Shown: positions 9,679 to 35,587 of the stretch, in pieces | Numbering within the stretch: the stretch's first letter is position 1 | Layout: each line of letters starts with the position of its first letter | NCBI GenBank assembly: GCA_018436095.1 | Contig: JAHDMJ010000018.1 | Coordinates: 1 to 64,000, forward strand | Reading direction: 5' to 3' | DNA from: Clostridia bacterium | GTDB taxonomy: Bacteria; Bacillota; Peptococcia; DRI-13; UBA5745 | DNA: 64,000 nucleotides | Notes under the pieces: model-generated | Seen by the model: only the letters and a program-made list of their open reading frames with translations | The model's database searches: none | What the model was told of the DNA's origin: nothing | Position numbers and translations under genes: made by a program

Positions 9679-10647
9679 TCATGCCTTTGGCGCGGTTTGG
9701 CCGGCCTCCGGTGAAAAGGGCGGCGGTAATAGTTCTTCAAACATATTGGTGATGCATTTCAGTGCTACCTGTTCCTGGTGATGGAGGCTGGAAACTTTTT
9801 GGTGGATAAGACAAAGAACCATGTCGTTATCCGCAATAAGCCCCGGGAAAGAGACGGACCGCAGCCGCCGGTTGTCCACGCTGTGGTCATAGTGGAAAGC
9901 AAAGCCGCTAAGCACCGTGAGCATGCCGTGGTCGAAAACAGCCTGCTTCACCAACGGAACATTGGGAAAAATGGTGAAGTGGTTGCTGGCATCCAAAAGG
10001 TGGGAAAAGAAGATGGTGTTTTCGCCCAAATGAAAGTGGGGCAGGATGGCAAACTGCTGGTTTTGCAGTTCGGAAACGTTGATAGCCGGTTTGTTGGCCA
10101 GGGGGCAGTCTTCCCGCATGACCAGGTAAAGATGATCTTGAAATAATTGGGTGACTTGGATTTGATATTTTTGGGCCACGGCAATAAATTCACGTAACCC
10201 CTTTTTGCTGTAGTAGGTGAGGCCGATGTTGGAGTGGTTCTGCACAACGCTGGGGCCAACGTCAGAGCCTACCATTTCGTGAAAAATCAAGCTGCCCCGG
10301 GGCACTCTTTTTCGAAAGCACCGGATCAGATCCAGGGAAAGGGAGCAGGTTATGCTGGGGGAGCTGATGATGTTCACCGGCTGCGGCGAACAGTCTTCCC
10401 CGTTGAGGTTCATGGATATGGACCAGCGGGACCAGATATCCCAGGCTACGGCCAGGGCTTCCTTGCCCCTTGCGGTGGGGATTACACCTTCCCGGCTGCG
10501 CTGAAAAACAGCAAAGCCAAGCTCCTCTTCCAAGCGGCTGACAATGGAGCTGAGAGCTGTCTGGCTCAGATAGAGCTCTTTGGCCGCCGCAGAAATAGAG
10601 TGATGGGCGTCGATTACCAGCAGGTAATATAAGTGTTCCACTCTCAT
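9679..10647 (-). CDS. LysR-family transcriptional regulator
   Basis: A 322-residue protein with the LysR N-terminal winged helix-turn-helix (residues 1-60; ISAAAKELYLSQTALSSIVS, then EELGFAVFQR) and a C-terminal substrate-binding domain. Its ATG overlaps the stop of the upstream regulator gene in an ATGA, so the two LysR genes are co-transcribed. It belongs to the minus-strand arm of the catabolic island and probably controls the divergent 14.4-14.6 kb promoter region. The inducer is unknown; LysR proteins usually respond to a pathway substrate or intermediate. Confidence 0.9.
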   Translation of the reverse strand: MRVEHLYYLLVIDAHHSISAAAKELYLSQTALSSIVSRLEEELGFAVFQRSREGVIPTARGKEALAVAWDIWSRWSISMNLNGEDCSPQPVNIISSPSITCSLSLDLIRCFRKRVPRGSLIFHEMVGSDVGPSVVQNHSNIGLTYYSKKGLREFIAVAQKYQIQVTQLFQDHLYLVMREDCPLANKPAINVSELQNQQFAILPHFHLGENTIFFSHLLDASNHFTIFPNVPLVKQAVFDHGMLTVLSGFAFHYDHSVDNRRLRSVSFPGLIADNDMVLCLIHQKVSSLHHQEQVALKCITNMFEELLPPPFSPEAGQTAPKA

Positions 10648-11636
10648 AGGCTCGTCCTCTCATCTTGCAGGCTTTCAGCCGCCTGTCCGCCCGGAGGCTC
10701 CGGCAGGCAGAGTTCCTCAATATATTCTTTAATGCAGTCAACCAAGATGCGCTCTTGGTAACGAAGGTGCTGCATACCCCGGTGCAACAGGCAAAGGTTA
10801 AGCTCCGGAACGCCTTGGCTTTCACATAAGGGCAGGGCCACCTGATGGCCGGGATCGTAGACGCCGGAGCAATAAAGGGTGAACCAGGTGGCGAAGCCCA
10901 CCATGTTCTGCTCCATAATTAAACTGCGCATCAGGGAGTAATTGTTGATGGCAACCTGATGGTTTATATCCTGCAGCAGATCTTTAAACAATGGGCCCAA
11001 GCCGCTGGAGCTGCAGGTGGTGATGACGCAAAACTGGGCGTTTTGGAAATCTTCTTTTGTAACGGCCTGCCGCTGGGCCATGGGATTATCCTTATTGACC
11101 AGCAGGAAAAAGCGGGTTTTCAGAAGGGGAAGGGCAATAATGCCGGAGCGGTCGGAGGCCTGCTGGAGATTGCGGAGCTCTTTTTCGGTAAAAAAGGTCA
11201 GTCCCACATTGGCAGTATGCCGCACAAGCAGAGGGGGGATGTCCAGGCGGGGCCATTCCTCCATGGTGAGATCGGCGGGAAGAGCAAAGGCATTATACCG
11301 CCGGGCAATTTCAATGGATGAGGCCGCGCAGGCGCCGGGGGACATAAGGAGGCTGATGGGCTGGGTACGGGGCCGGGGGCGGTCTTGCCGGGAAAGGTTA
11401 AGCAGCTCTTCCGATCTGATATCGATGTCCCGGGCCAGGGAAAGAAATTGCTTCCCTTTGGTGGTGGGGACCATGCCGCTGGGCGTGCGGTAAAAGATAG
11501 AGAAGCCCAGCTCCCGCTCCACGGCGTTTATGATAGAGCTGAGCGTTGTTTGCGGCAAATGCAGGGCACGGGCCGCGGAAGAGATAGACTTGTGCCGGTC
11601 AATCTCCAGAAGGTAATGATAATTCTCTAAATGCAT
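10644..11636 (-). CDS. LysR-family transcriptional regulator, paralogue
   Basis: A LysR protein of 330 residues starting MHLENYHYLLEIDRH, with helix-turn-helix ISSAARALHLPQTTLSSIIN. It is clearly paralogous to the gene just downstream, sharing HYLLEID/YYLLVID and TTLSSI/TALSSI segments. The ATG at 11636 is preferred over 11657 because GGAGGGGG lies directly in front of it. Two adjacent, translationally coupled LysR paralogues may act as a pair or recognise two related ligands, matching the duplicated enzyme genes of the divergent operon. Confidence 0.88.
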   Translation of the reverse strand: MHLENYHYLLEIDRHKSISSAARALHLPQTTLSSIINAVERELGFSIFYRTPSGMVPTTKGKQFLSLARDIDIRSEELLNLSRQDRPRPRTQPISLLMSPGACAASSIEIARRYNAFALPADLTMEEWPRLDIPPLLVRHTANVGLTFFTEKELRNLQQASDRSGIIALPLLKTRFFLLVNKDNPMAQRQAVTKEDFQNAQFCVITTCSSSGLGPLFKDLLQDINHQVAINNYSLMRSLIMEQNMVGFATWFTLYCSGVYDPGHQVALPLCESQGVPELNLCLLHRGMQHLRYQERILVDCIKEYIEELCLPEPPGGQAAESLQDERTSL

Positions 11637-11675
11637 GCCATCCCCCTCCTGCTCCATATGTTCTTTGAATAGCCC

Positions 11676-11710
11676 AACAGGAGGGACCGAAAAAATCGGT
11701 TCCTCCTGTT
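11676..11710. terminator. strong hairpin between opine-type dehydrogenase and LysR genes
   Basis: AACAGGAGG-G-ACCGA pairs with TCGGT-T-CCTCCTGTT, a 14-bp stem around an A/T loop. It lacks a T-run after the stem, so it may be a weak terminator or an RNA-stabilising element that lowers regulator expression relative to the upstream genes. Confidence 0.6.
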
Positions 11711-11735
11711 AAGTGGACTATTCTTTTCCGAAAGG

Positions 11736-12803
11736 CTAGATTTGCTTGTAGATTTCCTCCAGGGTCATTTCTGCCGGGAAACCAAGGTTCTCCAGGGTGC
11801 GGCCATCGTTTATATAATCCCGGTCGTTGATGGCTCCGGCCACGCCCAGGAAAGCGGCCAGCACCGGCATTTCCAGACCCAGCCGCTTGGCTGCCGACAG
11901 GGCGAGGGCGCCGCCGCAACTGCAATCCTCGTGAAGATAACGGTGGTCCAGGGCATTAGGGCCGTCCATATACTTGTAGAAAACATGGACTTCCGGATGG
12001 GCCTCCAGGTTTTGAATCTTTTCGATCATACCCATAGGATTGCCGTGTTCGGGCAGGCCCATAGCCTGGAGCACAGCCAGGCGCTCGGCCCGGATTTTAC
12101 TTACGCATTTAATCACGTTGGGCGTAAAGGCGTATTTGAACAAGGAAAATTCGTCGCCTTTATGGTCGATCTCCGCTGCGGCCAGCACCGTGCTGGCAAT
12201 GTGATTAATGACATTGCCGGCGTTCATGACGCCTTCGAATACATTTTGGTTCCCGGAATATTCTACCACACCTTCCAAGTCCTTGAGAACCCGTTCCGTA
12301 TCGGCAGCGGGAAGGGAAGCCACTTTGCCCTTGAGATTCAGGGGCAGGCCTGCGGTTACTTCCCCTTTGGCGGAAAGGCGGCAGGGGCAGAAATTGCCTT
12401 CCTTTTCCGTTAGGGTGACCTGGGCGGTGACGCCCAGCTCCCGAAAAACCTTGCGGAAGATGAAGGAACCAAGATTGCCGGGGGTAATGAGGATATGCTG
12501 GCCATCCTCCAGATAAGGAGCGATGCGCCGGGCAATTTCTTCATGCCGGTCCGACATGACGTGGACGAAAACAGCCTGAGCGCCGGCCATGGCTTCCGCC
12601 GGGTCGGTGGTAAGCTTGGCGGGTTTGCCGGTTCCGTGCATCATGCCCCGCAGCGTAATACCGCCCAAATTTTCAATATCCGCAAAACGCTCCGCAAAGC
12701 GGGCGTCATCGTAAAATGTTACCTGAAAACCCCGCCGGGCCATGACGGCAGCTACGGCATGGCCGGTGGCGCCGGCGCCGATAACGGTGATCCTTTCAAT
12801 CAT
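11736..12803 (-). CDS. octopine/opine dehydrogenase-family NAD(P) oxidoreductase
   Basis: A 355-residue protein. The N-terminal Rossmann fold has GAGATGHAVAAVMARRG (residues 9-25), and the C-terminal helical domain has GNVINHIASTVL, placing a His at the position expected of the octopine dehydrogenase catalytic residue. This family oxidises or forms secondary amine (imino) bonds between an amino acid and a 2-oxo acid. It lies 47 bp downstream of the anion permease and is probably co-transcribed with it. AAGGAG precedes the start. The natural substrate cannot be read from sequence. Confidence 0.85.
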   Translation of the reverse strand: MIERITVIGAGATGHAVAAVMARRGFQVTFYDDARFAERFADIENLGGITLRGMMHGTGKPAKLTTDPAEAMAGAQAVFVHVMSDRHEEIARRIAPYLEDGQHILITPGNLGSFIFRKVFRELGVTAQVTLTEKEGNFCPCRLSAKGEVTAGLPLNLKGKVASLPAADTERVLKDLEGVVEYSGNQNVFEGVMNAGNVINHIASTVLAAAEIDHKGDEFSLFKYAFTPNVIKCVSKIRAERLAVLQAMGLPEHGNPMGMIEKIQNLEAHPEVHVFYKYMDGPNALDHRYLHEDCSCGGALALSAAKRLGLEMPVLAAFLGVAGAINDRDYINDGRTLENLGFPAEMTLEEIYKQI

Positions 12804-12850
12804 TTGTCGCGATCTCCTTTACAGTTGTAGGTTTTGTCACAGCTAAAACA

Positions 12851-14332
12851 TTAACCGAGGATGAGATAGCCCAGGGTAAACAGGGGCACAGCCACCAGCA
12901 AACAGGCTAGGCAGCCCACCAGCGTTACCTTGATACGCATACCGCCGTTTTGCAGGGAGGGCTGGGAGTGGAAGATAGAGGCGGGAGCGGAAGCGCCGGG
13001 CAGAACCATGCCGATGTTGATCATGTAAATCAGGGCGGCGCCGGCAAACTGAGGATTCATGCCGCTGGACATAACGAAGGGCGCGATGATGGGGATCATG
13101 GCGGCGCCGAAGGCGATGTTGGAGCCCAGATTGGTCAGGATCATGGACAGCATCATGGTGAAGACCAGGATGAAGGCGCCGCCCTTGCCGGCAAAGATGG
13201 GAGAGAACACGCCGGTAAGCCAGGGCAGGATGCCGGTAGCCTCGTTGGTGACAGCGGCGGCTATGGGCAGCGTAACGGCGCACATCAGGATGACTTCCCA
13301 GCTAATGGCCGTATCCTTGACTTTTCTGAATTCGATGGTAGGCTTGCCGTCGCCCTCGCCGCTGGGCAGCACCAGCAGGACGGCGGCGCAGACGCAATAC
13401 ATACCGGCCACGGTCATGGTGTTATTGATGAAATTGGCAAAAGCGGTGCCGATCAAGGTGTTGCCCAGGATGCAGAGAAAAACCGTAAGAACATAAAGAA
13501 CCAGAATACGCTTGGCCCGGGGGCGCAGCACCTTGCTTTCTTCTCCCATCTTGTTCACATCAAAGCGTTTCATGATGCTGTAGTCCACCTTGAAGATCCA
13601 CTTGCTGAGAAAAACATAGGCCGTCAGAATCAGCACGGTGGCGGGGAGGGTGAAGGCGGCCATGAGACCCATGTTTAACTGGACGGAGGTCACGTTACTC
13701 CAGGTGGTGGCCAGGCCCAGCATCCAGCTCTGGTAGGGAACCATGGCGCCTCCTAAGATGGTGCACAGCATAATGCCGGCAAAACCCACATAGCGGAAAG
13801 AGCAATCTTTTTCGTAGCCGCAGTTGTCGGCGATATCCTGCCAGATGCCATAGAGGATGAGAGAAAGGACGATCTGGTTAACAACGATGCAGGACAGGCC
13901 GAAAACCACAAAGAAGGACCAGACATAAAGCAGGGGCTTACCCTTGAAGATTTTTTTGGATAAAGACCAGCGTACAAACCACTTGCCGAAGCCGTAGTAG
14001 GACAGGGAACCGGCGGCAATGAAGCCCACGATGCTCTGGAATACTACGTTGTGGCCCATCATGGAGGTAATGGCGGCGCTCATGGAGGTAAAGCCGCTGA
14101 TACCAAAAGCGATAATGGCAAATAAGGAGGGCCAGATGATGTCGCAGGATGAGTAACCGTAAACAACGCCTAAGAAAACACCTAGCACCCTCATGCCCAC
14201 AGGGGTTAGGGTGCTGAAGGGAGGCAGGAAGCCAAAGCCGAACATGAGGAATAAAGTAATTGCAATATTGACGAGTTTAACAGGGCTGTATCCCTTATTA
14301 ATCGCCTTGATGGTGGTTGTTGTTGTCGCCAT
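12851..14332 (-). CDS. SLC13/DASS-type anion permease
   Basis: A membrane protein (493 residues) with about 12 hydrophobic segments and two internal similar halves. The conserved segments TNLGSNIAFGAAMIPI and PGASAPASIFHSQP near the C terminus fit the divalent anion:sodium symporter and related ion-transporter superfamily. The family carries di- and tricarboxylates or similar anions. The ATG at 14332 has AAGGGAG upstream; the longer frame to 14395 adds a leader with no ribosome-binding site. As first gene of the minus arm, it most likely imports the compound handled by the divergent enzymes. Confidence 0.82.
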   Translation of the reverse strand: MATTTTTIKAINKGYSPVKLVNIAITLFLMFGFGFLPPFSTLTPVGMRVLGVFLGVVYGYSSCDIIWPSLFAIIAFGISGFTSMSAAITSMMGHNVVFQSIVGFIAAGSLSYYGFGKWFVRWSLSKKIFKGKPLLYVWSFFVVFGLSCIVVNQIVLSLILYGIWQDIADNCGYEKDCSFRYVGFAGIMLCTILGGAMVPYQSWMLGLATTWSNVTSVQLNMGLMAAFTLPATVLILTAYVFLSKWIFKVDYSIMKRFDVNKMGEESKVLRPRAKRILVLYVLTVFLCILGNTLIGTAFANFINNTMTVAGMYCVCAAVLLVLPSGEGDGKPTIEFRKVKDTAISWEVILMCAVTLPIAAAVTNEATGILPWLTGVFSPIFAGKGGAFILVFTMMLSMILTNLGSNIAFGAAMIPIIAPFVMSSGMNPQFAGAALIYMINIGMVLPGASAPASIFHSQPSLQNGGMRIKVTLVGCLACLLVAVPLFTLGYLILG

Positions 14333-14395
14333 TGTGTGACTCCCTTTCTTAAAAAGATAAAGCGGCAGAGACGGATTAAGAGAGTTCCGGTTCAA

Positions 14396-14659
14396 CCTTT
14401 GTCTCCAATGGAAACACCATAATACACTTTACCATTTTTCTTATGACAAGTTCAAGGTAATAGACTATTGGGACTTTCGGCATGGGGTAACGCTTTTTGG
14501 CGTTTTCCTAACTTTTGGATTTGCGCTATTATGGTGTCAAAGAGAGTTCCCATTCAGCCAAGGCCGTGGAAAGGCCAGACAAAGAGCGGGCCCGGGAGAA
14601 TCAGGCCGGCCGCTGCGACGAAGAGTTAATGAAAAAGTACGTCAGAAAGGAAAAGTGAC
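14396..14659. promoter_or_regulatory. divergent regulatory region with mirrored motif
   Basis: This gap between the permease and the first racemase-family gene carries ACACCATAATA at 14414-14424 and its exact reverse complement TATTATGGTGT at 14527-14537. AAGAGAGTTCC is also repeated directly at 14378 and 14540. Mirrored elements about 110 bp apart in a divergent region next to two LysR genes are good LysR binding candidates. No coding sequence is seen. Confidence 0.6.
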
Positions 14660-15379
14660 ATGTACGGTTGGAGAGCGAAAATCGGGCTGATTACGCCCAT
14701 GAGTGAAAACGCGGAGCACGCATTTCACATCTACGCTCCGGAGGGAGTGTCTGTTTGCTCCTTAAAAATCAATTTTCCCGGTCCCACGCCGGAAGGGTTG
14801 ATCTATCTGACCGACCAGTTGGAAGACACCGCTGCCATGTATAAGGGGCGGAATCTGGATTTGGTCGTGTTTGGCTGCACCTCCGGCAGTTGCATAAAGG
14901 GCTACGGCTGGGATAAAGAATGTACAGAGCGCATTGAACGGGCCTGCGGCATCCCTGGTCTGACTACCAGCACGGCAGTGCTGGAAGGACTACGGGCCCT
15001 GGGAACCAAAAAGGTAGCGGTGCTTACGCCCTATCCGGAAGCGACTAACGTGGCGGAAAAGAAGTTCCTGGAAGACAATGGCTTTGAAGTCACCAATATC
15101 GTAGGCATGAATATGAGCCAGTTTACCGGCAAGGGAATGAGCTTTGAGGATGCGGATGAGCATTTTCTCTATCAGCATTCCCTCCATATGGATCTAAAAG
15201 GCGCGGACACCTTCTTTTTAAGCTGCATGGGCCTTACCACCATGGAGATTATTGACGCGCTGGAAACCGGGCTGGGCCTGCCGGTCATCACCAGCCATCA
15301 GGCCACCCTGTGGTCGGCCCTGCGTCATTGCCGCATCGGCGCAAAGCTGCCTAAGCTGGGCCGGTTGTTCACCCTGTAA
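14660..15379 (+). CDS. Asp/Glu racemase-superfamily enzyme (maleate isomerase/arylmalonate decarboxylase type), copy 1
   Basis: A 239-residue cytoplasmic enzyme. Two catalytic cysteines are expected in this superfamily and both are visible: FGCTSGSC near residue 74 and FFLSCMGL near residue 190. LTPYPEATNVAEKKFLEDNG in the middle is also typical of maleate isomerase and arylmalonate decarboxylase relatives. The start follows GAAAGGAA. It is the first gene of the plus-strand arm and close to its neighbour in sequence. Racemisation, cis-trans isomerisation or decarboxylation of a dicarboxylate are all possible. Confidence 0.85.
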   Translation: MYGWRAKIGLITPMSENAEHAFHIYAPEGVSVCSLKINFPGPTPEGLIYLTDQLEDTAAMYKGRNLDLVVFGCTSGSCIKGYGWDKECTERIERACGIPGLTTSTAVLEGLRALGTKKVAVLTPYPEATNVAEKKFLEDNGFEVTNIVGMNMSQFTGKGMSFEDADEHFLYQHSLHMDLKGADTFFLSCMGLTTMEIIDALETGLGLPVITSHQATLWSALRHCRIGAKLPKLGRLFTL

Positions 15380-15407
15380 ACTTGATATACGGAAAGGGCT
15401 GATTAAT

Positions 15408-16115
15408 ATGTATGCTTGGCGAGCCAGAATCGGCGTTATCGCCCCTCTTGACGATCAGGTGGAATACGCTTTCAATAAGTACGCACCGGAAGGCGTAGCC
15501 TTTAACAGTACCAGACTTTATTTCCCCGGCCCCACCCCGGAAGGCCTGATCTTCCTGTCCGACCAACTGGAAGAGACAGCGAAAATCTACCGCAAGCAGC
15601 ACCATGACGTGGTTCTTTTCGGCTGCACCTCCGGCAGTTGCATTAAAGGCTATGGCTTTGACAAAGAATGCATTGAGCGCATTGAACGGGCCTGCGGCTG
15701 GCCGGGGCTGACCACCAGCACCGCTGTGCTGGAAGCCTACCAAGCCCTGGGCCTTAAAAAGACCGTTGTGATGACCCCTTATCCGGAGGAGACCAACCAG
15801 GCGGAAAAGAAATTCCTGGAGGACAACGGCCTGGAGGTCACTTCCATCACCGGAATCGGCTTCAATAAGGAGGGGGATTACGGCTACGCCAGCAAATGGC
15901 ACCTGTACCGCAACGCCAAGAAGCTGAAAACCGAGGGAGCGGAAGTATTCTTCCTTAGCTGTATGGGCCTTGCAACCATGGAGCTTGTGCAAATCCTGGA
16001 AGAGGACCTGGGTATGCCGGTGATCACCAGCCATCAGGCCAGTCTCTGGGCCTGCCTGCGCCACACCGGCATCAATGACAAGCTTCCCGGCCTGGGCAAA
16101 CTGTTCACGCTGTAA
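15408..16115 (+). CDS. Asp/Glu racemase-superfamily enzyme, copy 2
   Basis: A tandem paralogue (235 residues) of the preceding gene. It shares FGCTSGSCIKGYG, ERIERACG, PGLTTSTAVLE, FFLSCMGL and the ending GKLFTL/GRLFTL. Both catalytic cysteines are kept. The ATG at 15408 is chosen because the encoded MYAWRARIG matches MYGWRAKIG of copy 1; a longer frame from 15252 overlaps copy 1 and is rejected. GGAAAGGG lies upstream. Retention of both active sites suggests a hetero-oligomer or two related substrates, not a decayed duplicate. Confidence 0.87.
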   Translation: MYAWRARIGVIAPLDDQVEYAFNKYAPEGVAFNSTRLYFPGPTPEGLIFLSDQLEETAKIYRKQHHDVVLFGCTSGSCIKGYGFDKECIERIERACGWPGLTTSTAVLEAYQALGLKKTVVMTPYPEETNQAEKKFLEDNGLEVTSITGIGFNKEGDYGYASKWHLYRNAKKLKTEGAEVFFLSCMGLATMELVQILEEDLGMPVITSHQASLWACLRHTGINDKLPGLGKLFTL

Positions 16116-16162
16116 TACTAATTTCAATGGGGAATTGCAATAGACCGTAAGGAGGATCTAAC

Positions 16163-17542
16163 ATGGGCTTCAATTATCACGGTATTACCACAGATATGAC
16201 GAAACAGTTGTGCCATTTTATTAAAAATTTGCAATATACGGACATCCCTCCCGCAGTAATCGAGCGGGCTAAGATGAACATCATGCAGACCGTAGGCGTT
16301 TGCCTGTGCAGCGCCGAACTCAAGCAGATTAAAGACGCTATTGAAATAGCCAAGGAGATGTCTCCCGGCGGGGAAGCGGTTGCCACCCTGTGGGCCGACG
16401 GCAAAAAGGTAAGCTGGGAATCCGCCGCTTTCCTGGCCGGCACTATGGGCGACTGCCTGGATTGGGAAGACTGTTCCGTAACCGGCCATCCCTCCGCCGG
16501 CGTCATCACCACCGCCATCGTGGCCGGTGAAGCGCTGAAAAAGAGCGGCAAGGAAGTGCTTACGGCCATCGTGGCCGGTTATGAAGTATATCAGCGCATT
16601 GCCCTGGCCGGCCGCAGCAACATCGTCAGTTATAACACCTTCGGCAACCTGACGGTGCTGATGAAGCTGCTGGATCTGTCCGAAGAGAAGATGAACCGGG
16701 CCTTCGGTATCGGCACGGCCTGCGCCATTATCGCCTGCAACGTTCATGAAGCTACGATGTCCGACTCCCTGAACTACCTCTATGGCTATAAAAACCAAAA
16801 TGCCGTTACCATGATAAAAACGGCCTTGCTGGGCATTGAAAACATGGAAGACGCCTTCGATGATCCCACCGCTTATCTGCGCCATTGCGGTTATCAGGAG
16901 CCGGAATGGCTCACCAAGGAACTAGGCGAGACCTGGATGATGATGAACATGATCCTCATCAAACATTGGCCGGCCAACGTCTTTGTGCAGACCTATGCGG
17001 AGCTGGCCAGCCGCCTCGTCACCAAGAATAAGTACAACCCGGAGGATGTGGAAGAGATCATCATCCGTCCCTCTGTGGCTTTCCGGCACTGGTATTCGGA
17101 TGACGGCTATGATTCCGTTACCCAGGCCCAATTCTCCATCCCCTATTGCACGGCCTGCGCCATGTACTATCCCGAGCCCGGCGCCGTCTGGTACCAGCCC
17201 GAAACCATGCGGGACCCCAGGATCGTTGCGCTGATGAACAAGGTCAAGGCCGATGGCTTCGTGGAGATGAAGGGCCTGAAGTTCATCAAGGACCTCATTG
17301 ACGGCCAGCATCCTGAAAAGTTCATGACCGTACGGATGAAAGATGGCACCGAGTATGTGGAAAGCGCATTCACCCACCCCGGCCACCCCAACTACATGCT
17401 CACCCGGGATGAGTTTAAGGACCGTTTCCGCTTGGAAACCAAAAATGTCCTCAGTCCGGAAAAGACCGAAGCCGCTATCGACTTCATCTGCCGTTTCGAA
17501 GCCTGCGAGGACGTCTCGGCGCTGCCCGCGCTCCTCTATTGA
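16163..17542 (+). CDS. MmgE/PrpD-family enzyme, copy 1
   Basis: A 459-residue MmgE/PrpD protein with an N-terminal all-helical domain containing LDWEDCSVTGHPSAG and a C-terminal domain with PYCTACAMYY and HPGHPNYM. The family includes 2-methylcitrate dehydratase, aconitate decarboxylase and iminodisuccinate epimerase, all acting on polycarboxylates. AAGGAGG precedes the ATG. It is 47 bp after the racemase-type genes and probably in the same operon. The substrate is unknown; no prpB, prpC or methylcitrate-cycle gene is nearby, which argues against a propionate role. Confidence 0.85.
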   Translation: MGFNYHGITTDMTKQLCHFIKNLQYTDIPPAVIERAKMNIMQTVGVCLCSAELKQIKDAIEIAKEMSPGGEAVATLWADGKKVSWESAAFLAGTMGDCLDWEDCSVTGHPSAGVITTAIVAGEALKKSGKEVLTAIVAGYEVYQRIALAGRSNIVSYNTFGNLTVLMKLLDLSEEKMNRAFGIGTACAIIACNVHEATMSDSLNYLYGYKNQNAVTMIKTALLGIENMEDAFDDPTAYLRHCGYQEPEWLTKELGETWMMMNMILIKHWPANVFVQTYAELASRLVTKNKYNPEDVEEIIIRPSVAFRHWYSDDGYDSVTQAQFSIPYCTACAMYYPEPGAVWYQPETMRDPRIVALMNKVKADGFVEMKGLKFIKDLIDGQHPEKFMTVRMKDGTEYVESAFTHPGHPNYMLTRDEFKDRFRLETKNVLSPEKTEAAIDFICRFEACEDVSALPALLY

Positions 17543-17635
17543 TAAGGCGCTTGCTAAGGCGCCGTTGGAAACCGGCCTTATAGGGCCGCATTGCAAAAAC
17601 AGGAAAATTTCCAAGATTATTTGGGGAGGTACAAA

Positions 17636-19108: not shown

Positions 19109-19201
19109 TTTTGGGCGCCGCTTCAGCCTTCCTGGTCTTAGTGCTCTGTGACAACTTTTAGGAGTCACAAAACGCTAGTCGCTTAGCAGGAATTTCCCAA
19201 A

Positions 19202-19240
19202 GGGGGATACGGTGCGGGAAGCGCCGTATCCCCCGCTTTT
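19202..19240 (+). terminator. terminator-like hairpin after the MmgE/PrpD genes
   Basis: GGGGGATACGG (19202-19212) pairs with CCGTATCCCCC (19224-19234), an 11-bp GC-rich stem followed by GCTTTTG. It probably partly separates the isomerase/PrpD transcript from the redox operon that starts at 19275. Confidence 0.75.
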
Positions 19241-19274
19241 GCAGGTGATACTAATCTGCCTACAGGAGGAGTAA

Positions 19275-20546
19275 ATGAATAAAATTGCTATTATAGGGTT
19301 TGGCGCCGCCGGCTACTGCGCGGCGGCGGAAGCCCGCAAATGGGACCCGGATGCCTTGATCGATGTTTATACGGACGCCGGCAGGGGGCCCTATAATCCC
19401 ATGCTGACCACCTATTATGTAAAAGGCGCCATTGATTATGAGGCCATGTTCCCCTTTGGCTCCCTGGATGAAATTGAGGAACGCCTGGGTCTTTGCATTC
19501 ACCGGAATACTGCGGTGACCGGCCTTGATGCAGAGACGAAAACAATTTGCCTCCCGGATGGGACAAAAGCAGCCTACGATAATATTCTCATCAGCACCGG
19601 CGCATCCGCTTTTGTACCGCCGATTCAAGGGGGAGACCTGCCCGGCGTTTTTAAAATGCGTACGGCAGAGGATGGGGTGTATCTGAAAAAGCTGCTGGAT
19701 GGCGGCAAAATCCGCTCCGGTCTGGTAGTGGGCGCCTCCTGGGTGGGCATCAAGGTGGTGGAGGATCTGGTAGAGCAGGGGGTTGACTGCACCCTGGTAG
19801 ATGGCGCGGACTGGGCTTTTTCCATTGCGGCTTTCCGGCAAACAGCCCAGCGGGTCCACCGGGATTTGGAGAAGAAAGGAATTAAGCTGGCCTTTGGCCA
19901 GATGCTTTCCCATATTGAACAGGAAGAGGACGGCCGGATTACTGCCGTAATGAAAAATGGCCGCCGCTTTACGGCGGATATCATTGCCATTTGCATCGGC
20001 GTCCGGCCTAATGTGGCCTTCTTAAAGGATAGCGGCATCGCCGTGAACCGGGGCGTATTGGTGGATGAGCGGATGGGCACCAACCTGCCGGGCATTTATG
20101 GGGCGGGGGATTGCTGCGAGGCCTATGAAATCCAATCCGGTGAGCGCAAAAACATCGGCCTTTGGTTTAACGCCAGAAAACAGGGGGAAGTGGCCGGCGC
20201 CAATATGGCCGGCAAAAGGAAAGCCTTTGGCGGCAACGCACTGCTCAACCTGGCCCATTACCTGGATTATGATTTCATCAGCATCGGCGATGTTGCTTCC
20301 TGCCGGGATGAAGACCAGGTTTATGAATACGAGGATGACCGGTATTACATCCGGGCTGTGCGGGGCGAAAAGCTCAAATGCATTAATATGATCGGCACGG
20401 GGGAGAGCAACGGTGTCGTTAAGAGCCTTTTTATCAAGTATTTTGAGAATAACCAGGCGGAAATGGATATGGCCTCCATCTGCCATTTGAAGGAGAATGG
20501 GTTTCCCGACAGCTTCATCGATTTTATAGGGAGGGATCAGCATTGA
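19275..20546 (+). CDS. FAD-dependent NAD(P)-disulfide-type oxidoreductase
   Basis: A 423-residue flavoprotein. An N-terminal FAD-binding GFGAAGYCAAAEA (residues 8-20), a second dinucleotide fold around residues 145-175 (GLVVGASWVGIKVVEDL) and the FAD-contacting GIYGAGDCCEA near residue 275 match the nitrite-reductase/NADH-oxidase-like class. AGGAGGAG lies just before the ATG. It overlaps the molybdopterin subunit gene by 4 bp, so it likely passes electrons between NAD(P)H and the molybdenum subunit through the ferredoxin subunit encoded next. Confidence 0.87.
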   Translation: MNKIAIIGFGAAGYCAAAEARKWDPDALIDVYTDAGRGPYNPMLTTYYVKGAIDYEAMFPFGSLDEIEERLGLCIHRNTAVTGLDAETKTICLPDGTKAAYDNILISTGASAFVPPIQGGDLPGVFKMRTAEDGVYLKKLLDGGKIRSGLVVGASWVGIKVVEDLVEQGVDCTLVDGADWAFSIAAFRQTAQRVHRDLEKKGIKLAFGQMLSHIEQEEDGRITAVMKNGRRFTADIIAICIGVRPNVAFLKDSGIAVNRGVLVDERMGTNLPGIYGAGDCCEAYEIQSGERKNIGLWFNARKQGEVAGANMAGKRKAFGGNALLNLAHYLDYDFISIGDVASCRDEDQVYEYEDDRYYIRAVRGEKLKCINMIGTGESNGVVKSLFIKYFENNQAEMDMASICHLKENGFPDSFIDFIGRDQH

Positions 20547-22681
20547 ATGAGCTGGAAAAGAAGATAAAAGCAAAAATTCCCGGGGAAGATACGGGGATTG
20601 AGATTAAGCGTTCCCTTTGTGCCATTTGCAGCCCCGGCTGCCATTGCGGCTTGGATTGCTATGTAAAAGACGGCCAGCTGCTCAAGGTAGAGGGAACCCT
20701 GGAGCATCCCTATAACCGGGGCAAGCTTTGCACCAAGGGGGCGGCCAACCGGAATTATATCTACCGGGAAGACCGCATCCGCACTCCCCTCAAGCGTGTG
20801 GGCCCCCGGGGAGAGGGTAAGTTTGAGCCCATTAGCTGGGATGAAGCCTACGGGATCATCGCGGAAAAGCTGGCTGCGGTGAAAGAAAAGTACTCGCCCC
20901 ATTCCGTGGCTTTCTTTAGCGGCTACTGTAAATGGTACCGCCCCATCCTGCACCGCTTCTGCTACACCTTTGGTTCCGTCAACTTTGGCACCGATGACAG
21001 CACCTGCTTTAAATCCATGGACATTGCCAACTCCCTGACCACCGGCGCCCCCGGCGGCCCCAATATCCCCAATACCAATACGTTCCTGGGCTGGAACTAT
21101 GGCGGCTATTACTCGAACCATTTAAGCGTAGGTCCTGTCCGGGCCCTGAAGGAACGGGGCGGCAAGGTCATTATCATTGATGTGCGCTACTCGCCGGCGG
21201 CCAAGAACTTTGCGGATATCTTTCTGCAAATCAGGCCCGGCACCGACGGCGCTCTGGCCCTGGGCATGGGCAAGCTGATTATCGATAACGGCTGGGCGGA
21301 TATGGATTATATCGAAAAGCACACCTATGGCTTCGATGAATATAAGGAACTGGTGCAGAATTATCCCTTGGATAAGGTTTGCGAGATTACGGGCTTAAAT
21401 CCCGATGATGTGTTTGAGGCCACCAAGCTCTATGCCACCAACGGTCCTGCCTGCACAAATTTCTCCGCTTCCGCCCTGACCCACCGGGTCAACGGCCTGC
21501 AGACTCATCGGGCCATCATTTGCCTTGGGGCCCTGACCGGCAATTTTGACCGCCCCGGCGGCAATGTGCCCAGCTTTGCCAGCTATATCCATAAGCGGGG
21601 CGGATTTACCACCCGGGAAATGGAATTCCGGGAGGAAAAGCGTCCCTTTGACCAGCTTCGCATCGGGGAAACCCGCTTCCCTACCTGGGACGAATATTGC
21701 GACGAATTTCAGGCTATGGATTTGCTGCGCCAGATTGAGGAGGGCAGGCCCTATCCCGTCAAGGCCATTGTGGGCTTTGGCATGAACGCCAAAATGTTCC
21801 CCGAAACGGATAAGCTGGTGAAAGCCTTTGATAAGCTGGACTTCTTTGTGGATGCGGATATGTTCATGACCTATACGGCAAAGTATGCGGATATCGTCCT
21901 GCCCTCTTGCTCCTCCCTGGAGCGGGGGGAAATGAAGGCCTATGAGGGCGGGTATCTTGCCTTTACCAAGCCCGCTATCCCGCCGCTGTATGAATCCAAG
22001 TCCGATGTGGATATGCTCTGTGAGCTGGCCCGGGTGATGGACCTTGATGACGATTTGCTCAAGGCCGGTTATGAAGCCTGCTGCGATTGGATGATTGAGG
22101 GGAATGGGGTGACGGTTGCGGATCTGAAAGCCTCCGATCTGCCCGTAAAAATCCAGACGGCAAAGCCGGTGGTTCCCGGCGCCTATCTGGAAAAAGGCTG
22201 CAGGACGCCTACAGGCAAAATTGAGTTTTATTCCAAGGCCATTGCGGCTTACGATCCCAAGTATGGCCTGAATCCCCTGCCGGATTATGTTGATCCGCTT
22301 TTTGATGAGAACGATCCGGAAACAAAGGAAAAGTATCCCTTCCATATGATTGCCGGTATCCGCATCCCCAATACGATTCACTCCCGGGTCCATGAAGTTC
22401 CCTGGCTGCGCAGCCTCCGGCCCGATCCCCTTTGTGAGATCAATCAGGATGACGCCAAGAACCTGGGCATCAATGACGGCGATCCTGTGGAAGTCAGCAG
22501 CCCCTATGGTACGGTCCGGCTCAAAGCTATGATTACAGCCAAGCTGCAGCCCGGCGTACTGGCCATGGCCCATGGGTATACGGAGGCAAATGCAAATGTG
22601 CTGGTAGGCCGCGATCATCTTGATCCTTACTCCGGTTATCCCGGATTCAAGAGTTTGCGCTGCTCCATTCGTAAGTATTAG
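20543..22681 (+). CDS. molybdopterin oxidoreductase, DMSO reductase family
   Basis: The catalytic subunit (712 residues) has an N-terminal 4Fe-4S motif, Cys26-x2-Cys29-x3-Cys33 with Cys63 in GKLCTKG, then the bis-MGD-binding domains and a C-terminal dinucleotide-binding domain (VEVSSPYGTVRLKA near residue 650). Cys155 in DDSTCFKSM is the likely metal ligand, as in Cys-ligated relatives; it is not selenocysteine. It starts with TTG overlapping the upstream stop, with GGAGGG 7 bp before. No Tat signal is present, so the enzyme is cytoplasmic. Substrate unknown. It may be a reductase or a non-redox hydratase-type member. Confidence 0.88.
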   Translation: MNELEKKIKAKIPGEDTGIEIKRSLCAICSPGCHCGLDCYVKDGQLLKVEGTLEHPYNRGKLCTKGAANRNYIYREDRIRTPLKRVGPRGEGKFEPISWDEAYGIIAEKLAAVKEKYSPHSVAFFSGYCKWYRPILHRFCYTFGSVNFGTDDSTCFKSMDIANSLTTGAPGGPNIPNTNTFLGWNYGGYYSNHLSVGPVRALKERGGKVIIIDVRYSPAAKNFADIFLQIRPGTDGALALGMGKLIIDNGWADMDYIEKHTYGFDEYKELVQNYPLDKVCEITGLNPDDVFEATKLYATNGPACTNFSASALTHRVNGLQTHRAIICLGALTGNFDRPGGNVPSFASYIHKRGGFTTREMEFREEKRPFDQLRIGETRFPTWDEYCDEFQAMDLLRQIEEGRPYPVKAIVGFGMNAKMFPETDKLVKAFDKLDFFVDADMFMTYTAKYADIVLPSCSSLERGEMKAYEGGYLAFTKPAIPPLYESKSDVDMLCELARVMDLDDDLLKAGYEACCDWMIEGNGVTVADLKASDLPVKIQTAKPVVPGAYLEKGCRTPTGKIEFYSKAIAAYDPKYGLNPLPDYVDPLFDENDPETKEKYPFHMIAGIRIPNTIHSRVHEVPWLRSLRPDPLCEINQDDAKNLGINDGDPVEVSSPYGTVRLKAMITAKLQPGVLAMAHGYTEANANVLVGRDHLDPYSGYPGFKSLRCSIRKY

Positions 22682-22692
22682 GAGGCGGAATA

Positions 22693-23238
22693 ATGAAACA
22701 TGTTTTTACCTTTGATCCGGACCGGTGCTGCGCCTGCTCGGCCTGCATGATTGCCTGCACGGACCAGAACGACATCAACCTGAAGGCCGGCGAAAAATGC
22801 TTCCGCAAAACCTACGACACGGAAGTGGCCTTTAAGGAAGGCGGGATTTACTGCGCCTATCTTTCCACCGCCTGCATGCACTGTGAGGATGCTCCCTGCA
22901 TCGCCGCCTGTCCGGTGGGATGCATCAGCAAGGATGCCGATACCGGATTTACCATCTATGACAATACGAATTGCGTAGGCTGCAAAAGCTGCGCTATGGC
23001 CTGTCCCTTTGGCGCCCCCCGCTATAATACTGAAGATGGCAAAATGGTCAAGTGCGATGGCTGCTACATACGCATAAAGAACGGCATGAAGCCGGCCTGC
23101 GTCCGGGCCTGCTCCTTTGGAGCCTTGGATTGCCTAACGGAGGAAGAGTACCGCAACAGCGGCAGCGATAAAGCCTGCAACGTGCTGATCGACCAGGCCA
23201 ACCTGCGCAAAAAGGAAGCCCTGGGCCGCTGGAGATAA
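22693..23238 (+). CDS. 4Fe-4S ferredoxin-type electron-transfer subunit
   Basis: A 181-residue protein with four cysteine clusters in the DmsB/HycB/NrfC pattern: CCACSACMIAC near the start, CMHCEDAPCIAACP, CVGCKSCAMACP and CDGCYIRI...CVRACSFGALD. Four 4Fe-4S clusters are expected. It lies 11 bp after the molybdopterin subunit gene with AGGAGG before the ATG. It should link the molybdenum subunit to the flavoprotein. No membrane anchor gene follows, which again suggests a soluble complex. Confidence 0.9.
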   Translation: MKHVFTFDPDRCCACSACMIACTDQNDINLKAGEKCFRKTYDTEVAFKEGGIYCAYLSTACMHCEDAPCIAACPVGCISKDADTGFTIYDNTNCVGCKSCAMACPFGAPRYNTEDGKMVKCDGCYIRIKNGMKPACVRACSFGALDCLTEEEYRNSGSDKACNVLIDQANLRKKEALGRWR

Positions 23239-23260
23239 AAACGAAAAGCCTGAAATGTCA

Positions 23261-23310
23261 TATGAAATATTATGAAATATTATGAAATATTATGAAATAT
23301 TATGAAATAT
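23261..23310 (+). repeat. five exact copies of TATGAAATAT
   Basis: Five head-to-tail copies of the decamer TATGAAATAT fill 23261-23310 with no mismatch, followed by a decayed relative ending TATATGAA at 23334. The array lies between the ferredoxin stop and the start of the cyclodeaminase-family gene. A period of ten with no divergence suggests recent slippage and possible length variation. Confidence 0.95.
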
Positions 23311-23343
23311 CGTGTAGAATGTTATATGAAGGGGGGCCTTGCT

Positions 23344-24327
23344 GTGGTTCATGAGAGCATACTGTTTTTAAGCGAGGACGACGTCCTGTCCATGCTCACA
23401 CCCCAGGACGCCATTGAGGCGGCGGAAAGCGTCTTTTACCATATTGGCACAGGTGCGGTGACCGTTGGGGAGATGGCCTTAATGTTTACCGATGAGAGTA
23501 AACGAAACAATTTCCACTCCATGCCGGCGATTCTTCACTACAAGAATGTTGCGGGAGTAAAATGGATAAGTACTTACGGCGCTCCCGCGCCGGGCTATCC
23601 CTTTTGTCATGGCACCATTGTGCTTCTGAGCGATACCCACACCGGCTCCCCCATCGCTGTCGTAGGCGGCACGAACATCACCGCCCTGCGTACGGCCGGG
23701 GGGCACGGCGTTGTACAGGCCAAGCATCTGGCAAACCCGGAACCCGGGGTTTTGACGGTGCTGGGCTGCGGCGCCCAGGCCCAAGCCGGCATTCGGGGCT
23801 TCCTTACGCAGTTTAGCTCAATCAAGGAGGTGCGTCTGTTCAGCCGCAGCCGTCCTCCCATGGAGAAGGTAAAGGAAACCTACAAGGACCGGGCCCAGGT
23901 GGTGATTTGCCAATCACCTCAAGAAGCCGCCCGGGGCAGCAACCTGATCCTGGTGGCTTCCGGCGCCTGCGAGCCCTTGCTGGGGGCGGATATGGTTCAA
24001 CCGGGGACGACTATTATTGGGATTGAAGGCTTCCGGGATATTGATCCGGCTTTGGGCAAAGGGGCTGACAAGTGGTACCTGGGTTACCGTGTGCCGGATC
24101 AGTACATTCTCGACAGCCCCAAGCTAAATCCAGGCAAGCTGCAAGTAACGGATGTATTTGGGGATATGACGGAGCTGCTCACCGGACGGGTTCCCGGCCG
24201 GGAGCGGGAGGATGAGATAATTATCTCCACCCATATGGGGATGGGGGCCCATGATGTATATTGTGCGGAATTGCTGTATCGCCGGGCCTTGGAGCGGGGG
24301 ATTGGACAGCGGCTATGCTTGGCATAA
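23344..24327 (+). CDS. ornithine cyclodeaminase/mu-crystallin-family protein
   Basis: A 327-residue NAD(P)-dependent enzyme: an N-terminal dimerisation segment (LFLSEDDVLSMLTPQDAIEA), the substrate/cofactor motif TNITALRTAGG near residue 110 and a Rossmann motif LTVLGCGAQAQAGIRGF near 130-150. Family members include ornithine cyclodeaminase, alanine dehydrogenase and ketimine reductase. The GTG at 23344 follows AAGGGGGG at proper spacing and gives the usual family N terminus; the frame from 23302 begins inside the decamer array. Imine reduction would fit the opine-type dehydrogenase of the same island. Confidence 0.82.
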   Translation: MVHESILFLSEDDVLSMLTPQDAIEAAESVFYHIGTGAVTVGEMALMFTDESKRNNFHSMPAILHYKNVAGVKWISTYGAPAPGYPFCHGTIVLLSDTHTGSPIAVVGGTNITALRTAGGHGVVQAKHLANPEPGVLTVLGCGAQAQAGIRGFLTQFSSIKEVRLFSRSRPPMEKVKETYKDRAQVVICQSPQEAARGSNLILVASGACEPLLGADMVQPGTTIIGIEGFRDIDPALGKGADKWYLGYRVPDQYILDSPKLNPGKLQVTDVFGDMTELLTGRVPGREREDEIIISTHMGMGAHDVYCAELLYRRALERGIGQRLCLA

Positions 24328-24368
24328 AAACCGCGGCCCAGGGCCTGCTGCCCGGGACAGGCGGTTTT
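24326..24368 (+). terminator. terminator after the cyclodeaminase-family gene
   Basis: AAAAACCGC (24326-24334) pairs with GCGGTTTT (24361-24368), with an inner CCCAGGGC/GCCCGGG stem. The 3' arm ends in TTTT. It begins at the stop codon and separates the redox genes from mobB. Confidence 0.7.
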
Positions 24369-24396
24369 CGCAAATAGGGGAGGGAAGGGAAGCCGT

Positions 24397-24906
24397 ATGA
24401 CCAGGATTCCGGTTTTTTCGGTAGTTGGCTATTCGGGTACGGGAAAGACCACATTTTTGGAAGGACTGATTGCGATCCTTAAGGCAAAAGGCCTGCGCAT
24501 AGCTGTTATCAAACATGACGCCCATGAATTTGAGATTGACAGGGAAGGCAAGGATAGCTGGCGCCTGACCCGGGCGGGGGCGGATGTAACGGCGCTGCTA
24601 TCGGATACCAAGGCTGTTCTGATGGAAAACCGGCCTATTCCCATCCAGCGCCTTATCGGCCAAATCCAGGATGTAGACTTGATCCTTACAGAGGGATATA
24701 AGCAGGGAGATTGGCCGAAAATTCTGTTGCACGCCAAGAGGACGGGGAAGCCGCTGCCCATTGATCCCGATACCTGCATAGCCCTGTGCACCGATGACGC
24801 CATCGAAACAAGGGCCCCCCGGTATTCTCTGGAGGATACGCAAGCCGTAGCGGAATTGATTTATGGGCGGCTCCCGGACAAGGAGCCTACCCCCTGGGAG
24901 GAATGA
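24397..24906 (+). CDS. mobB: molybdopterin-guanine dinucleotide biosynthesis protein MobB
   Basis: A 169-residue P-loop GTPase: VVGYSGTGKTTFLEGLI (residues 8-24) is the Walker A, and VIKHDAHEFEIDREGKDSW is the typical MobB segment. MobB assists MobA in attaching GMP to molybdopterin. It overlaps mobA by 4 bp (ATGA). Placement directly behind a molybdopterin oxidoreductase operon suggests dedicated cofactor supply. Confidence 0.93.
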   Translation: MTRIPVFSVVGYSGTGKTTFLEGLIAILKAKGLRIAVIKHDAHEFEIDREGKDSWRLTRAGADVTALLSDTKAVLMENRPIPIQRLIGQIQDVDLILTEGYKQGDWPKILLHAKRTGKPLPIDPDTCIALCTDDAIETRAPRYSLEDTQAVAELIYGRLPDKEPTPWEE

Positions 24907-25526
24907 ACACCGTGCTGAGCGTCATACTTACCGGCGGCAAGAGCAGCCGGATGGGACATGACAAGGCGTTGCTGGATATGGAGGGCGGCGCCATGTCTCT
25001 TGTGCTGGCCCAACGGTATGCCGGGCTGGGACCTGTTGCTTTTGCGGTGGACCGGCCCGGCCGCTTTGATTGCGGCGGATTTTTAGAGCTGGCGGATGAA
25101 TTCCCCGGCTGCGGGCCTTTTAACGGGATCTATTCCGCTTTTCTAAAAACCCAGGAAGATTATATTTTTCTTACCGCTACGGATATGCCCAACGGCGATC
25201 CGGCTTTAGTGAGGCGGCTCCGGGAAGAGATTGGGGATTGCAGCGCCTGCACCATCCTGCGCAAGAACGGCTTTATGGAGCCCTTATTTTCTATTTATCA
25301 CCGAAGCTGCTTCAATTTCGCACGGGAATGCATGGAAACGGGACGCAACTCCCTTTTAGAGGTTTTCCGGCGCCTGAACGTTCGGACTGTGCCTGAGGAA
25401 GAGCTGGCCCAATGGGATATGGAATACGTTTTATGCAATATTAATACGCCAAAAGCCTACCGGCAATATCGGACAAGTTGCCGGCCTGCGGCGTCAAACA
25501 GGAGACAGACTATTCATGATAATTAA
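24903..25526 (+). CDS. mobA: molybdenum cofactor guanylyltransferase
   Basis: MobA transfers GMP from GTP to molybdopterin, giving the guanine dinucleotide form used by DMSO-reductase-family enzymes. The 207-residue protein starts MNTVLSVILTGGKSSRMGHDKALL, the nucleotidyltransferase signature, with LTATDMPNGDP as the metal-binding Asp segment near residue 95. Both neighbours overlap it, by 4 bp upstream and 11 bp downstream, showing tight coupling. A short Cys-Arg-rich C terminus shows no recognisable motif. Confidence 0.93.
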   Translation: MNTVLSVILTGGKSSRMGHDKALLDMEGGAMSLVLAQRYAGLGPVAFAVDRPGRFDCGGFLELADEFPGCGPFNGIYSAFLKTQEDYIFLTATDMPNGDPALVRRLREEIGDCSACTILRKNGFMEPLFSIYHRSCFNFARECMETGRNSLLEVFRRLNVRTVPEEELAQWDMEYVLCNINTPKAYRQYRTSCRPAASNRRQTIHDN

Positions 25527-26730
25527 CCCTGATTATAAATCGGCCCGGGATTTGCTGCTTGCCCTGGCTCTGCCGGTGGATGTGGAAAGAATATCATTGC
25601 CGGAGGCTGCCGGGCGGGTTTTGGCCCGGGACTTGACGGCAGAGAAAAGCATACCGCCTTTTGACGCTTCTCCCTATGACGGCTACGCCTTTTGTGCTGC
25701 CGACGCACAGAAAGCTTCCCGGGAAATGCCGGTAAAGCTGCGCATTTTGGAAGAGATACCGGCGGGGGCTGTTCCCTCGGTTTCGCTTACCCGGGGAACA
25801 GCGGTAAAAATCCTTACCGGCGCACCTCTGCCGGCTGGGGCCGACGTGGTGGTGCCTTTTGAACGTACCGAATTTACGCAAGACATGGTAACGATTTTTC
25901 AGGCTGCAAAAAGCGGGGAAAATATTGTGCGGGCCGGAGAGGATGTGACCGCCGGACAAAAACTGGCGGAGGCCGGGAGCATTATCGATGCCGGCCTTGC
26001 CGGTTGCCTGGCTTCCCAGGGCCGGGCCAACATAGAAGTGTTCCGCCGGCCCGTTATCGGCATTATTTCCACGGGCAACGAGGTCGTTGAAGCCCATGAA
26101 CCTTTGGCGCCCGGCAAGATACGCAATTCAAACCGGTATACCCTGGAGACGGTCCTGCGGGGCGCCGGTTGTTTGCCGCGCTACCTGGGGCTGGCCGGCG
26201 ACCGGACAGAAGAGATTTGCCGCTATATTAAAGAGGGCCTTATCTCCTGCGACGCCGTATTAATAACCGGCGGCGTATCCGTAGGGGATTACGATATGAC
26301 TCTTGCGGCAATGGAAATGGCCCAAGCCCGGGTGGTGGTCAGCGGCGTGCAGCTAAAGCCGGGCATGGCCTGCGCCTATGGGGAGAAGGACGGCAAGCTG
26401 GTTTGCGGGCTTTCCGGCAACCCGGCCTCGGCTCTCACCAACCTTTATGCCGTCGTACTGCCCGCCATAAAAAAGCTGGCGGGACAGCGGCAGCCGGTTC
26501 CCGATGAATTTTCTGTCATTCTCGCTTCGGAATTCCCCAAAAAGAGCCCTGTTACGCGGCTGCTGCGGGGCCGGTTGAACCTATCCGAAGGCAGGGCCCT
26601 GTTTATCCTGCCCCAGGAGCAAGGCAACAGAATACTGAGCAGCACCATTGGCTGCAATGCAATGGCTATTATTCCCGCCGGCAGTGGCCCCATGGCGGCG
26701 GGCACGCTGCTGTCCGGGTTTTTGCTATAA
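25516..26730 (+). CDS. moeA: molybdopterin molybdenumtransferase
   Basis: MoeA inserts molybdate into adenylylated molybdopterin. The 404-residue protein shows PPFDASPYDGYAFCA (residues 40-54), the IVRAGEDVTAGQKL segment, IISTGNEV near 180 and ITGGVSVGDYD near 255, and ends with the small MoeA C-terminal domain. AGGAG lies about 10 bp upstream of the ATG, which is inside the mobA end. It is the last gene of the plus-strand operon. No modABC or moaA lies in the window. Confidence 0.94.
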   Translation: MIINPDYKSARDLLLALALPVDVERISLPEAAGRVLARDLTAEKSIPPFDASPYDGYAFCAADAQKASREMPVKLRILEEIPAGAVPSVSLTRGTAVKILTGAPLPAGADVVVPFERTEFTQDMVTIFQAAKSGENIVRAGEDVTAGQKLAEAGSIIDAGLAGCLASQGRANIEVFRRPVIGIISTGNEVVEAHEPLAPGKIRNSNRYTLETVLRGAGCLPRYLGLAGDRTEEICRYIKEGLISCDAVLITGGVSVGDYDMTLAAMEMAQARVVVSGVQLKPGMACAYGEKDGKLVCGLSGNPASALTNLYAVVLPAIKKLAGQRQPVPDEFSVILASEFPKKSPVTRLLRGRLNLSEGRALFILPQEQGNRILSSTIGCNAMAIIPAGSGPMAAGTLLSGFLL

Positions 26731-28549: not shown

Positions 28550-28687
28550 GGAAAGCCGCCTCCTTTTATTATATAATTAAAGTATAACAAAGAGTTTTGG
28601 AGGTTTTTTGCCAAGAAACGCCTTTTGCTTGACCCGATCTCAGATTTGAGCATAGGAGCATCAGAAAAGCGGGGGAGGGAATCAAAA

Positions 28688-29745: not shown

Positions 29746-29795
29746 TTGACACATATACCTACACAATGTAGAATATTATTGTCTACAAGATGTAG
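29746..29795 (+). promoter_or_regulatory. promoter with two BlaI/MecI-type operators
   Basis: TTGACA (29746-29751), 17 bp, TAGAAT (29769-29774) forms a strong promoter. Two dyads, CTACACAATGTAG (29759-29771) and CTACAAGATGTAG (29783-29795), carry the TACA/TGTA half-sites of BlaI/MecI operators. The first overlaps the -10 and the second the transcription start, 24 bp centre to centre. The adjacent repressor very probably binds here and autoregulates. Confidence 0.85.
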
Positions 29796-29817
29796 TATAA
29801 TGAATGGGGTGGCTTTT

Positions 29818-35558: not shown

Positions 35559-35587
35559 ATTTAAATCAACAGAAAGAAGGATGTTAA

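Follow-up and report, generated by a model that had tools for sequence, protein, structure and literature searches.

A horizontally shared and probably catabolic anaerobic gene cluster, very likely for a small acidic compound, in a Clostridia bacterium

A set of 15 genes was identified at positions 9682-26727 of a 64,000-nucleotide stretch of a Clostridia bacterium genome (assembly GCA_018436095.1, 3.7 Mb; contig JAHDMJ010000018.1, positions 1 to 64,000; hereafter the window), and this locus is very likely a horizontally shared anaerobic catabolic cluster that lets its bearers live on a small acidic, perhaps amine-containing compound. The genes form two divergent arms separated by a 264-base promoter region (14396-14659). 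The minus-strand arm encodes two LysR-family regulators, an opine-dehydrogenase-family enzyme (OpDH) and a permease. The plus-strand arm encodes two isomerase- or racemase-type proteins (Amd1 and Amd2), two MmgE/PrpD-fold proteins (Mmg1 and Mmg2), an FAD-containing oxidoreductase subunit (FAD), a molybdopterin oxidoreductase (Moly), a ferredoxin (Fdx), an ornithine-cyclodeaminase-family protein (OCD), and the cofactor synthesis proteins MobB, MobA and MoeA. An earlier annotation of this DNA (the original prediction) named a series of enzyme families, and all of them are found here, together with the two LysR genes, in a single divergent cluster. We give even odds to a fuller reading, in which the cluster encodes an undescribed anaerobic pathway spread horizontally among gut, rumen and termite bacteria. 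In this reading, MmgE/PrpD proteins of a new subfamily, their active site rebuilt, work jointly with a molybdoenzyme of a new, NADH-linked kind, and their substrates, possibly N-carboxyalkyl amino acids, belong to a class without known gut degradation genes.

With the molybdoenzyme as query, a single alignment-based scan covering 84,980 species genomes retrieved 80 loci for comparison with the window; clusters without Moly are missed by design. Public loci and genomes are denoted by L- and G-numbers, ORFs of related loci were called with a simple codon-usage picker, and identities refer to the best tblastn or blastp segments. Homologues of both MmgE and OpDH were detected in 23 of the 26 loci with 54-96% Moly identity (L090-L115) and in none of the 54 more distant Moly loci (L116-L169). 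Among the three exceptions, L092 begins within the Moly gene, while L094 and L107 carry Moly and Fdx genes amid unrelated genes; the genome of L107 carries the full set elsewhere (L179). On the maximum-likelihood Moly tree, the presence of MmgE plus OpDH required 5 changes, compared with 20.8 for shuffled labels (none of 500 shuffles needed so few), and all of these changes fall within one clade of 28 rows. The original prediction had named lack of co-conservation as grounds for its own rejection, and these counts show that the genes are co-conserved. Nothing was found that places the enzymes in a clade with another known role.

The ten-gene core OpDH-Perm-Amd1-Amd2-Mmg1-Mmg2-FAD-Moly-Fdx-OCD is complete in ten other genomes (L090, L091, L093, L095, L099, L100, L106, L179, L200 and L201), and since the gene order recurs in all ten, the grouping is well beyond chance. 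A reverse search with Mmg2 as query against 250 genomes of the Oscillibacter sp. PC13 family gave a match at E <= 1e-60 in nine of them. Moly, FAD, Fdx and OpDH were found in seven of nine loci taken from these genomes, four of which are probably the same contigs as loci of the Moly scan; the other two, L206 and L208, show that MmgE genes also exist without Moly. Another six MmgE loci, taken from genomes in which a cluster had been identified before, all have Moly, FAD, Fdx and OpDH. Within the host genus, MmgE genes occur in one of four other genomes, the other three being 80-85% complete. A plasmid search with Mmg2 gave no match. We hold with high confidence that the cluster is one functional unit, and this unit is probably catabolic and anaerobic.

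Many bearers stem from guts, rumens and termites on plant diets. Cultured gut bearers include Anaerotruncus colihominis DSM 17241, Flavonifractor sp. An92, Oscillibacter sp. PC13 and Clostridiales 1_7_47_FAA, with two variants of the cluster in A. colihominis (L105 and L175) and three in 1_7_47_FAA (L093, L102 and L174). The host RpoB shares 59-75% identity with that of Oscillospiraceae and Lachnospiraceae bearers over aligned fragments, values that are indicative only, and 89% over 178 residues with that of G005, a member of its own family. Amd2 of the window shares 93% identity with its counterpart in G649 and 78-86% with those in other bearers; no Amd2 homologue was found in G005, whose own cluster shares 55% (Moly), 48% (OpDH) and 38% (MmgE) identity with that of the window. 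The cluster is thus more similar to that of distant gut bacteria than RpoB identity would suggest, which points to horizontal movement and, as far as RpoB fragments indicate, to a history that departs from the species tree. The near-universal parts of complete clusters are one or two MmgE genes, OpDH, FAD-Moly-Fdx and a transporter. Most clusters also contain Amd, 11 loci of the Moly scan contain OCD (12 cluster rows including the window), and the shortest gene sets are those of L110-L113 and L115.

The FAD protein, the molybdoenzyme and the ferredoxin together make up a redox module, and no other part of the cluster is shared as widely. Moly (20543-22678; PF00384, PF01568 and PF04879), the catalytic subunit of a molybdenum or tungsten oxidoreductase, retains the cluster ligands C26, C29, C35 and C63 and the metal ligand C155. 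It is nearly always accompanied by the FAD/NAD(P) pyridine-nucleotide oxidoreductase subunit (19275-20543; PF07992, 162 bits; PadH-like at 198 bits, under the cut-off) and the DmsB-type 4Fe-4S ferredoxin (22693-23235; TIGR02951, 128 bits, under the cut-off of 214). The original prediction had rightly named a molybdenum oxidoreductase and overlooked that the three proteins form a module. Moly belongs with acetylene hydratase and the formate dehydrogenases in the Mo/W bis-MGD family, and its Cys metal ligand aligns with theirs (Cys141 in acetylene hydratase). In formate dehydrogenases a catalytic His follows the Cys or Sec, and in acetylene hydratase Asp13 stands beside the cluster Cys. Both identities were rejected for Moly, which differs from them at these sites: C155 is followed by F156 where His is expected, position 156 being variable in the clade, and Asp13 of acetylene hydratase aligns with Ser30 (Ser, Ala, Cys or Thr in the clade). 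The reductive uric acid pathway was also dropped, as its paper describes molybdenum only for xanthine dehydrogenase.

More distant Moly loci show other gene neighborhoods. A sister molybdoenzyme set, found in L121, L125, L127-L131, L135 and L148 and occurring in many gut bacteria including Faecalibacterium, combines FAD-Moly-Fdx with a class I/II aminotransferase-fold gene resembling MalY/PatB, an amino acid permease, an EamA exporter and a GntR regulator. We would guess that the sister molybdoenzyme reduces an amino acid derivative, for example a cysteine S-oxide, before cleavage by the lyase. In L147 and L077 (Moorella sulfitireducens), a Moly relative lies with a TAXI-TRAP transporter and with genes that, judged by sequence, are UbiD decarboxylase-like and FAD reductase-like, hinting at aromatic or unsaturated acids. 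The cluster of the window might be mainly an electron-accepting module. The NADH-driven molybdoenzyme would then reduce an amino-diacid at an S-oxide, N-oxide, N-hydroxy or nitro group, leaving the other enzymes only to process the reduced product. The wide sharing of FAD-Moly-Fdx would fit such a role, as would the sister sets, whose amino acid permease, MalY/PatB-like gene and EamA exporter are those expected for reduction of an amino acid derivative. However, the cluster gives no pointer to an S- or N-oxide substrate and contains no membrane anchor or quinone link, and the metal ligand of Moly is Cys instead of the Ser of DMSO and TMAO reductases. We consider this role improbable.

OpDH (11739-12803; PF02317, 71 bits) consists of a Rossmann domain and a PF02317 domain, and its nearest solved relative is N-(1-D-carboxyethyl)-L-norvaline dehydrogenase (CENDH; 1bg6, 127 bits). 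H201 and D293, which align with the catalytic His and Asp of CENDH, are kept across the cluster family. OpDH thus shares its domain make-up and His/Asp pair with CENDH and octopine dehydrogenase and differs from them in residing in an anaerobic cluster with a molybdoenzyme. OCD (23302-24324) belongs to the ornithine-cyclodeaminase/mu-crystallin family and is nearest to archaeal AlaDH and SbnB; its scores of 134.7 against a cut-off of 409 (AlaDH) and 122.6 bits against 327 (SbnB) lie under the NCBIfam equivalog cut-offs and indicate family-level similarity only. The OpDH and OCD/SbnB families act in opine metallophore synthesis, so that the score of OCD to SbnB could also be taken to mean that the cluster runs in the biosynthetic direction, its product being a metallophore of the opine type or a comparable secreted amine. 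The cluster, however, has no nicotianamine-synthase-like enzyme, siderophore exporter or receptor, and carries instead importer-type DASS or TRAP transporters and inducer-type LysR or CdaR regulators, which makes this direction very improbable.

Amd1 (14660-15376; PF17645, 110 bits) and its paralogue Amd2 (15402-16112; PF17645, 115 bits; 62% identity) are two-cysteine isomerase- or racemase-type proteins of the Asp/Glu racemase superfamily, in the EutA/AMDase branch. They share Pfam family and superfamily with arylmalonate decarboxylase (AMDase), EutA and maleate isomerase, and score far under the NCBIfam cut-offs for EutA and AMDase. C73 and C189 are kept, and a Cys occupies the place of AMDase Gly74 in 28 of 29 rows. 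Gly74 is a mark of decarboxylases (PMC4996985). Identity with arylmalonate decarboxylase was therefore rejected, as the Amd proteins have two Cys as in racemases and not the single Cys and Gly of AMDase. An EutA-like isomerase is also found in ectoine and hydroxyectoine utilisation clusters together with DoeA and DoeB, where MmgE, OpDH and a molybdoenzyme of this type are absent. Elsewhere in the host genome, on contig C25 (L086:9919-16317), an EutA-like isomerase gene stands beside genes for a TRAP transporter, M24-type and M20-type peptidases and an FAD protein, with similar sets in L084 and L089; this set resembles ectoine utilisation in an anaerobe.

Mmg1 (16163-17539) and Mmg2 (17591-19105), both matching PF03972 and PF19305, have the MmgE/PrpD fold and a divergent active site. 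By root-mean-square deviation and TM score, the AF2 model of Mmg2 is nearest in Foldseek to iminodisuccinate epimerase (2hp3; TM score 0.87 by target length, 3.2 A), and cis-aconitate decarboxylase (CAD) is also close. In an active-site alignment of 37 cluster MmgE sequences with 10 others (E. coli PrpD and paralogues), the cluster retains D100, E102, D103, H109 and K267 fully or almost fully (H109 of Mmg1 corresponds to H130 of Mmg2). The catalytic His H109 (CAD H103) is present in 36 of 37 and Lys K267 (CAD K272) in all 37. The cluster proteins share the fold, H109, D100 and K267 with the known family of iminodisuccinate epimerase, cis-aconitate decarboxylase, 2-methylcitrate dehydratase and methylsuccinate isomerase. 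Two ordinary MmgE/PrpD genes are present on another host contig, C17 (L034:5667-14306), with aconitase-type, PrpF-like, CoA-transferase and lyase genes and a TRAP transporter; this is a separate, more usual tricarboxylate-type cluster.

The permease (12854-14395) matched no Pfam model. Its predicted structure (AF2 model, pLDDT 83.7) has the DASS/SLC13 anion symporter fold, with NaDC3 (8uve) as the best Foldseek match (TM 0.77, E 5.7e-14), so that the anion permease of the original prediction holds at the level of predicted fold. Two SNT motifs are expected in DASS/SLC13 proteins; one SN pair (S425 N426) is kept and the first motif is not clear. In other variants the transporter is of the TRAP type (L104, L108, L109 and L114) or an SSS symporter (L101). 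The regulators are encoded at 9682-10647 and 10647-11657 (each PF00126 and PF03466), and a LysR gene also occupies the position of the first in L091, L093, L099, L106, L200 and L201; L097, L102, L103 and L105 have instead a CdaR-like regulator with a Diacid_rec domain. In 11 aligned divergent intergenic regions (the window, the same-genus L027 and nine others), we read the consensus GGRTARCAAA-N8-TTTGNCA, a LysR-operator-like dyad. It occurs at <=2 mismatches in 7 of the 11 regions (0 or 1 of 300 shuffles as good) and is weak in two, while in the window, whose copy is degenerate, and in L027 it is no better than chance. As the consensus was derived from the same sequences, it is a lead and not a test, and the presence of a LysR operator in the promoter of the window itself was rejected as not significant alone.

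Transporter fold and regulator type suggest that the substrate is an anion. The Diacid_rec regulators of four variants and the M20 amidohydrolases that adjoin a few fit an acidic, amino-acid-like substrate, and the OpDH catalytic pair together with the DASS-fold importer leads us to favour, tentatively, an anionic, opine-like one. In such a pathway, the imported compound would be an N-substituted amino acid of anionic character, namely an opine-like secondary amine bearing at least two carboxylates, and the Amd and MmgE/PrpD-fold proteins would set its stereo-configuration right. OpDH would then oxidise the C-N bond with NAD+, yielding an amino acid, an oxo acid and NADH, and OCD may handle an imine by-product. 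The FAD-ferredoxin-molybdoenzyme chain, with the FAD subunit as presumed NADH input, would spend the NADH by reducing the substrate or an oxidised pathway intermediate. NADH formation and consumption would thus balance without an external acceptor, which would suit a fermenting organism.

Several observations weigh against this proposal. The His of the G-W/F-H motif (CAD H159) is absent from that position in all aligned cluster MmgE sequences and present in most outgroup sequences, and at the position of CAD K207 the cluster has Tyr or Leu, in one case Ser, and most of the outgroup has Lys. All characterised members conserve the residues that bind the 1,4-dicarboxylate moiety, these two among them (PMC12290011). 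In L110-L113 and L115 a His lies two residues beyond the lost H159 position and may be a shifted replacement. The two losses weaken the dicarboxylate argument drawn from the family; an S-D insertion fixed in the clade and ~18-21% identity also set the cluster proteins apart from solved MmgE/PrpD members. The claim of the original prediction that all the families meet on substituted dicarboxylates thus lacks support in that form, as the permease also has only part of the DASS SNT signature. Moreover, OpDH identity between clusters is only 31-78% and the enzyme may act on C-O instead of C-N bonds; the opine-like inference of the original prediction rests on the intact His/Asp pair. OCD is absent from about half of the clusters, the molybdoenzyme may work in either direction, and searches of the open-access literature found no assayed cluster member. 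Finally, an MR/MLE enzyme of the sugar-acid type is located near variant L104 and fits a nitrogen-free acid.

Such an acid could be a hydroxylated or sugar-derived polycarboxylate, for example an aldarate, an aconitate-like compound or another plant acid. OpDH would then be a hydroxy-acid dehydrogenase, the Amd proteins cis-trans isomerases, the MmgE proteins hydro-lyases or epimerases, and the molybdoenzyme a reductive dehydroxylase or enoate reductase. Besides the MR/MLE enzyme, the DASS and TRAP transporters, the Diacid_rec regulators, the closeness of the MmgE fold to iminodisuccinate epimerase and aconitate decarboxylase, and the many hosts in plant-diet guts, rumens and termites are consistent with this. 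However, the His/Asp pair of opine dehydrogenases is intact in OpDH, whose nearest solved relative is CENDH, half of the clusters have a second enzyme of the amine or imine type (OCD), and the same loss of two dicarboxylate-binding residues applies here. We regard a nitrogen-free substrate as only slightly less likely than an opine-like one.

The plus-strand arm ends with the molybdenum cofactor synthesis genes MobB (24397-24903; TIGR00176, 135 bits, above the cut-off), MobA (24903-25523) and MoeA (25516-26727); L200 has all three in the same place and order. An L-glutamate gamma-semialdehyde dehydrogenase of the TIGR01236 type (26924-28549; 783 bits, above the cut-off) adjoins an AraC gene. 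Since recurrence of this pair (26924-29428) is limited to the same genus, it was rejected as part of the unit. Further downstream, 29746-31835, judged by sequence, encodes a BlaI-like repressor and, behind it, a BlaR1-like membrane protein whose C-terminal domain is of the M23 peptidase type. The region 32306-38565 looks like a nitrogenase-like system: in the same-genus L028, the counterparts of its genes have starts resembling those of a NifH-type ATPase and of two nitrogenase-like subunits, and a binding-protein ABC transporter comes next.

No account of this cluster emerged from open-access literature searches on the gene combination, glycation products, gut molybdenum enzymes and S-oxides. 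If the proposed pathway is true, the cluster would explain genetically how opine-like or glycation-type amino acids are converted in the gut, and the DMSO-reductase superfamily would gain a new reaction. As cultured gut organisms bear the cluster, direct testing is possible. Even with another acid as substrate, a fixed unit this large without an assigned role represents a clear gap in gut metabolism.

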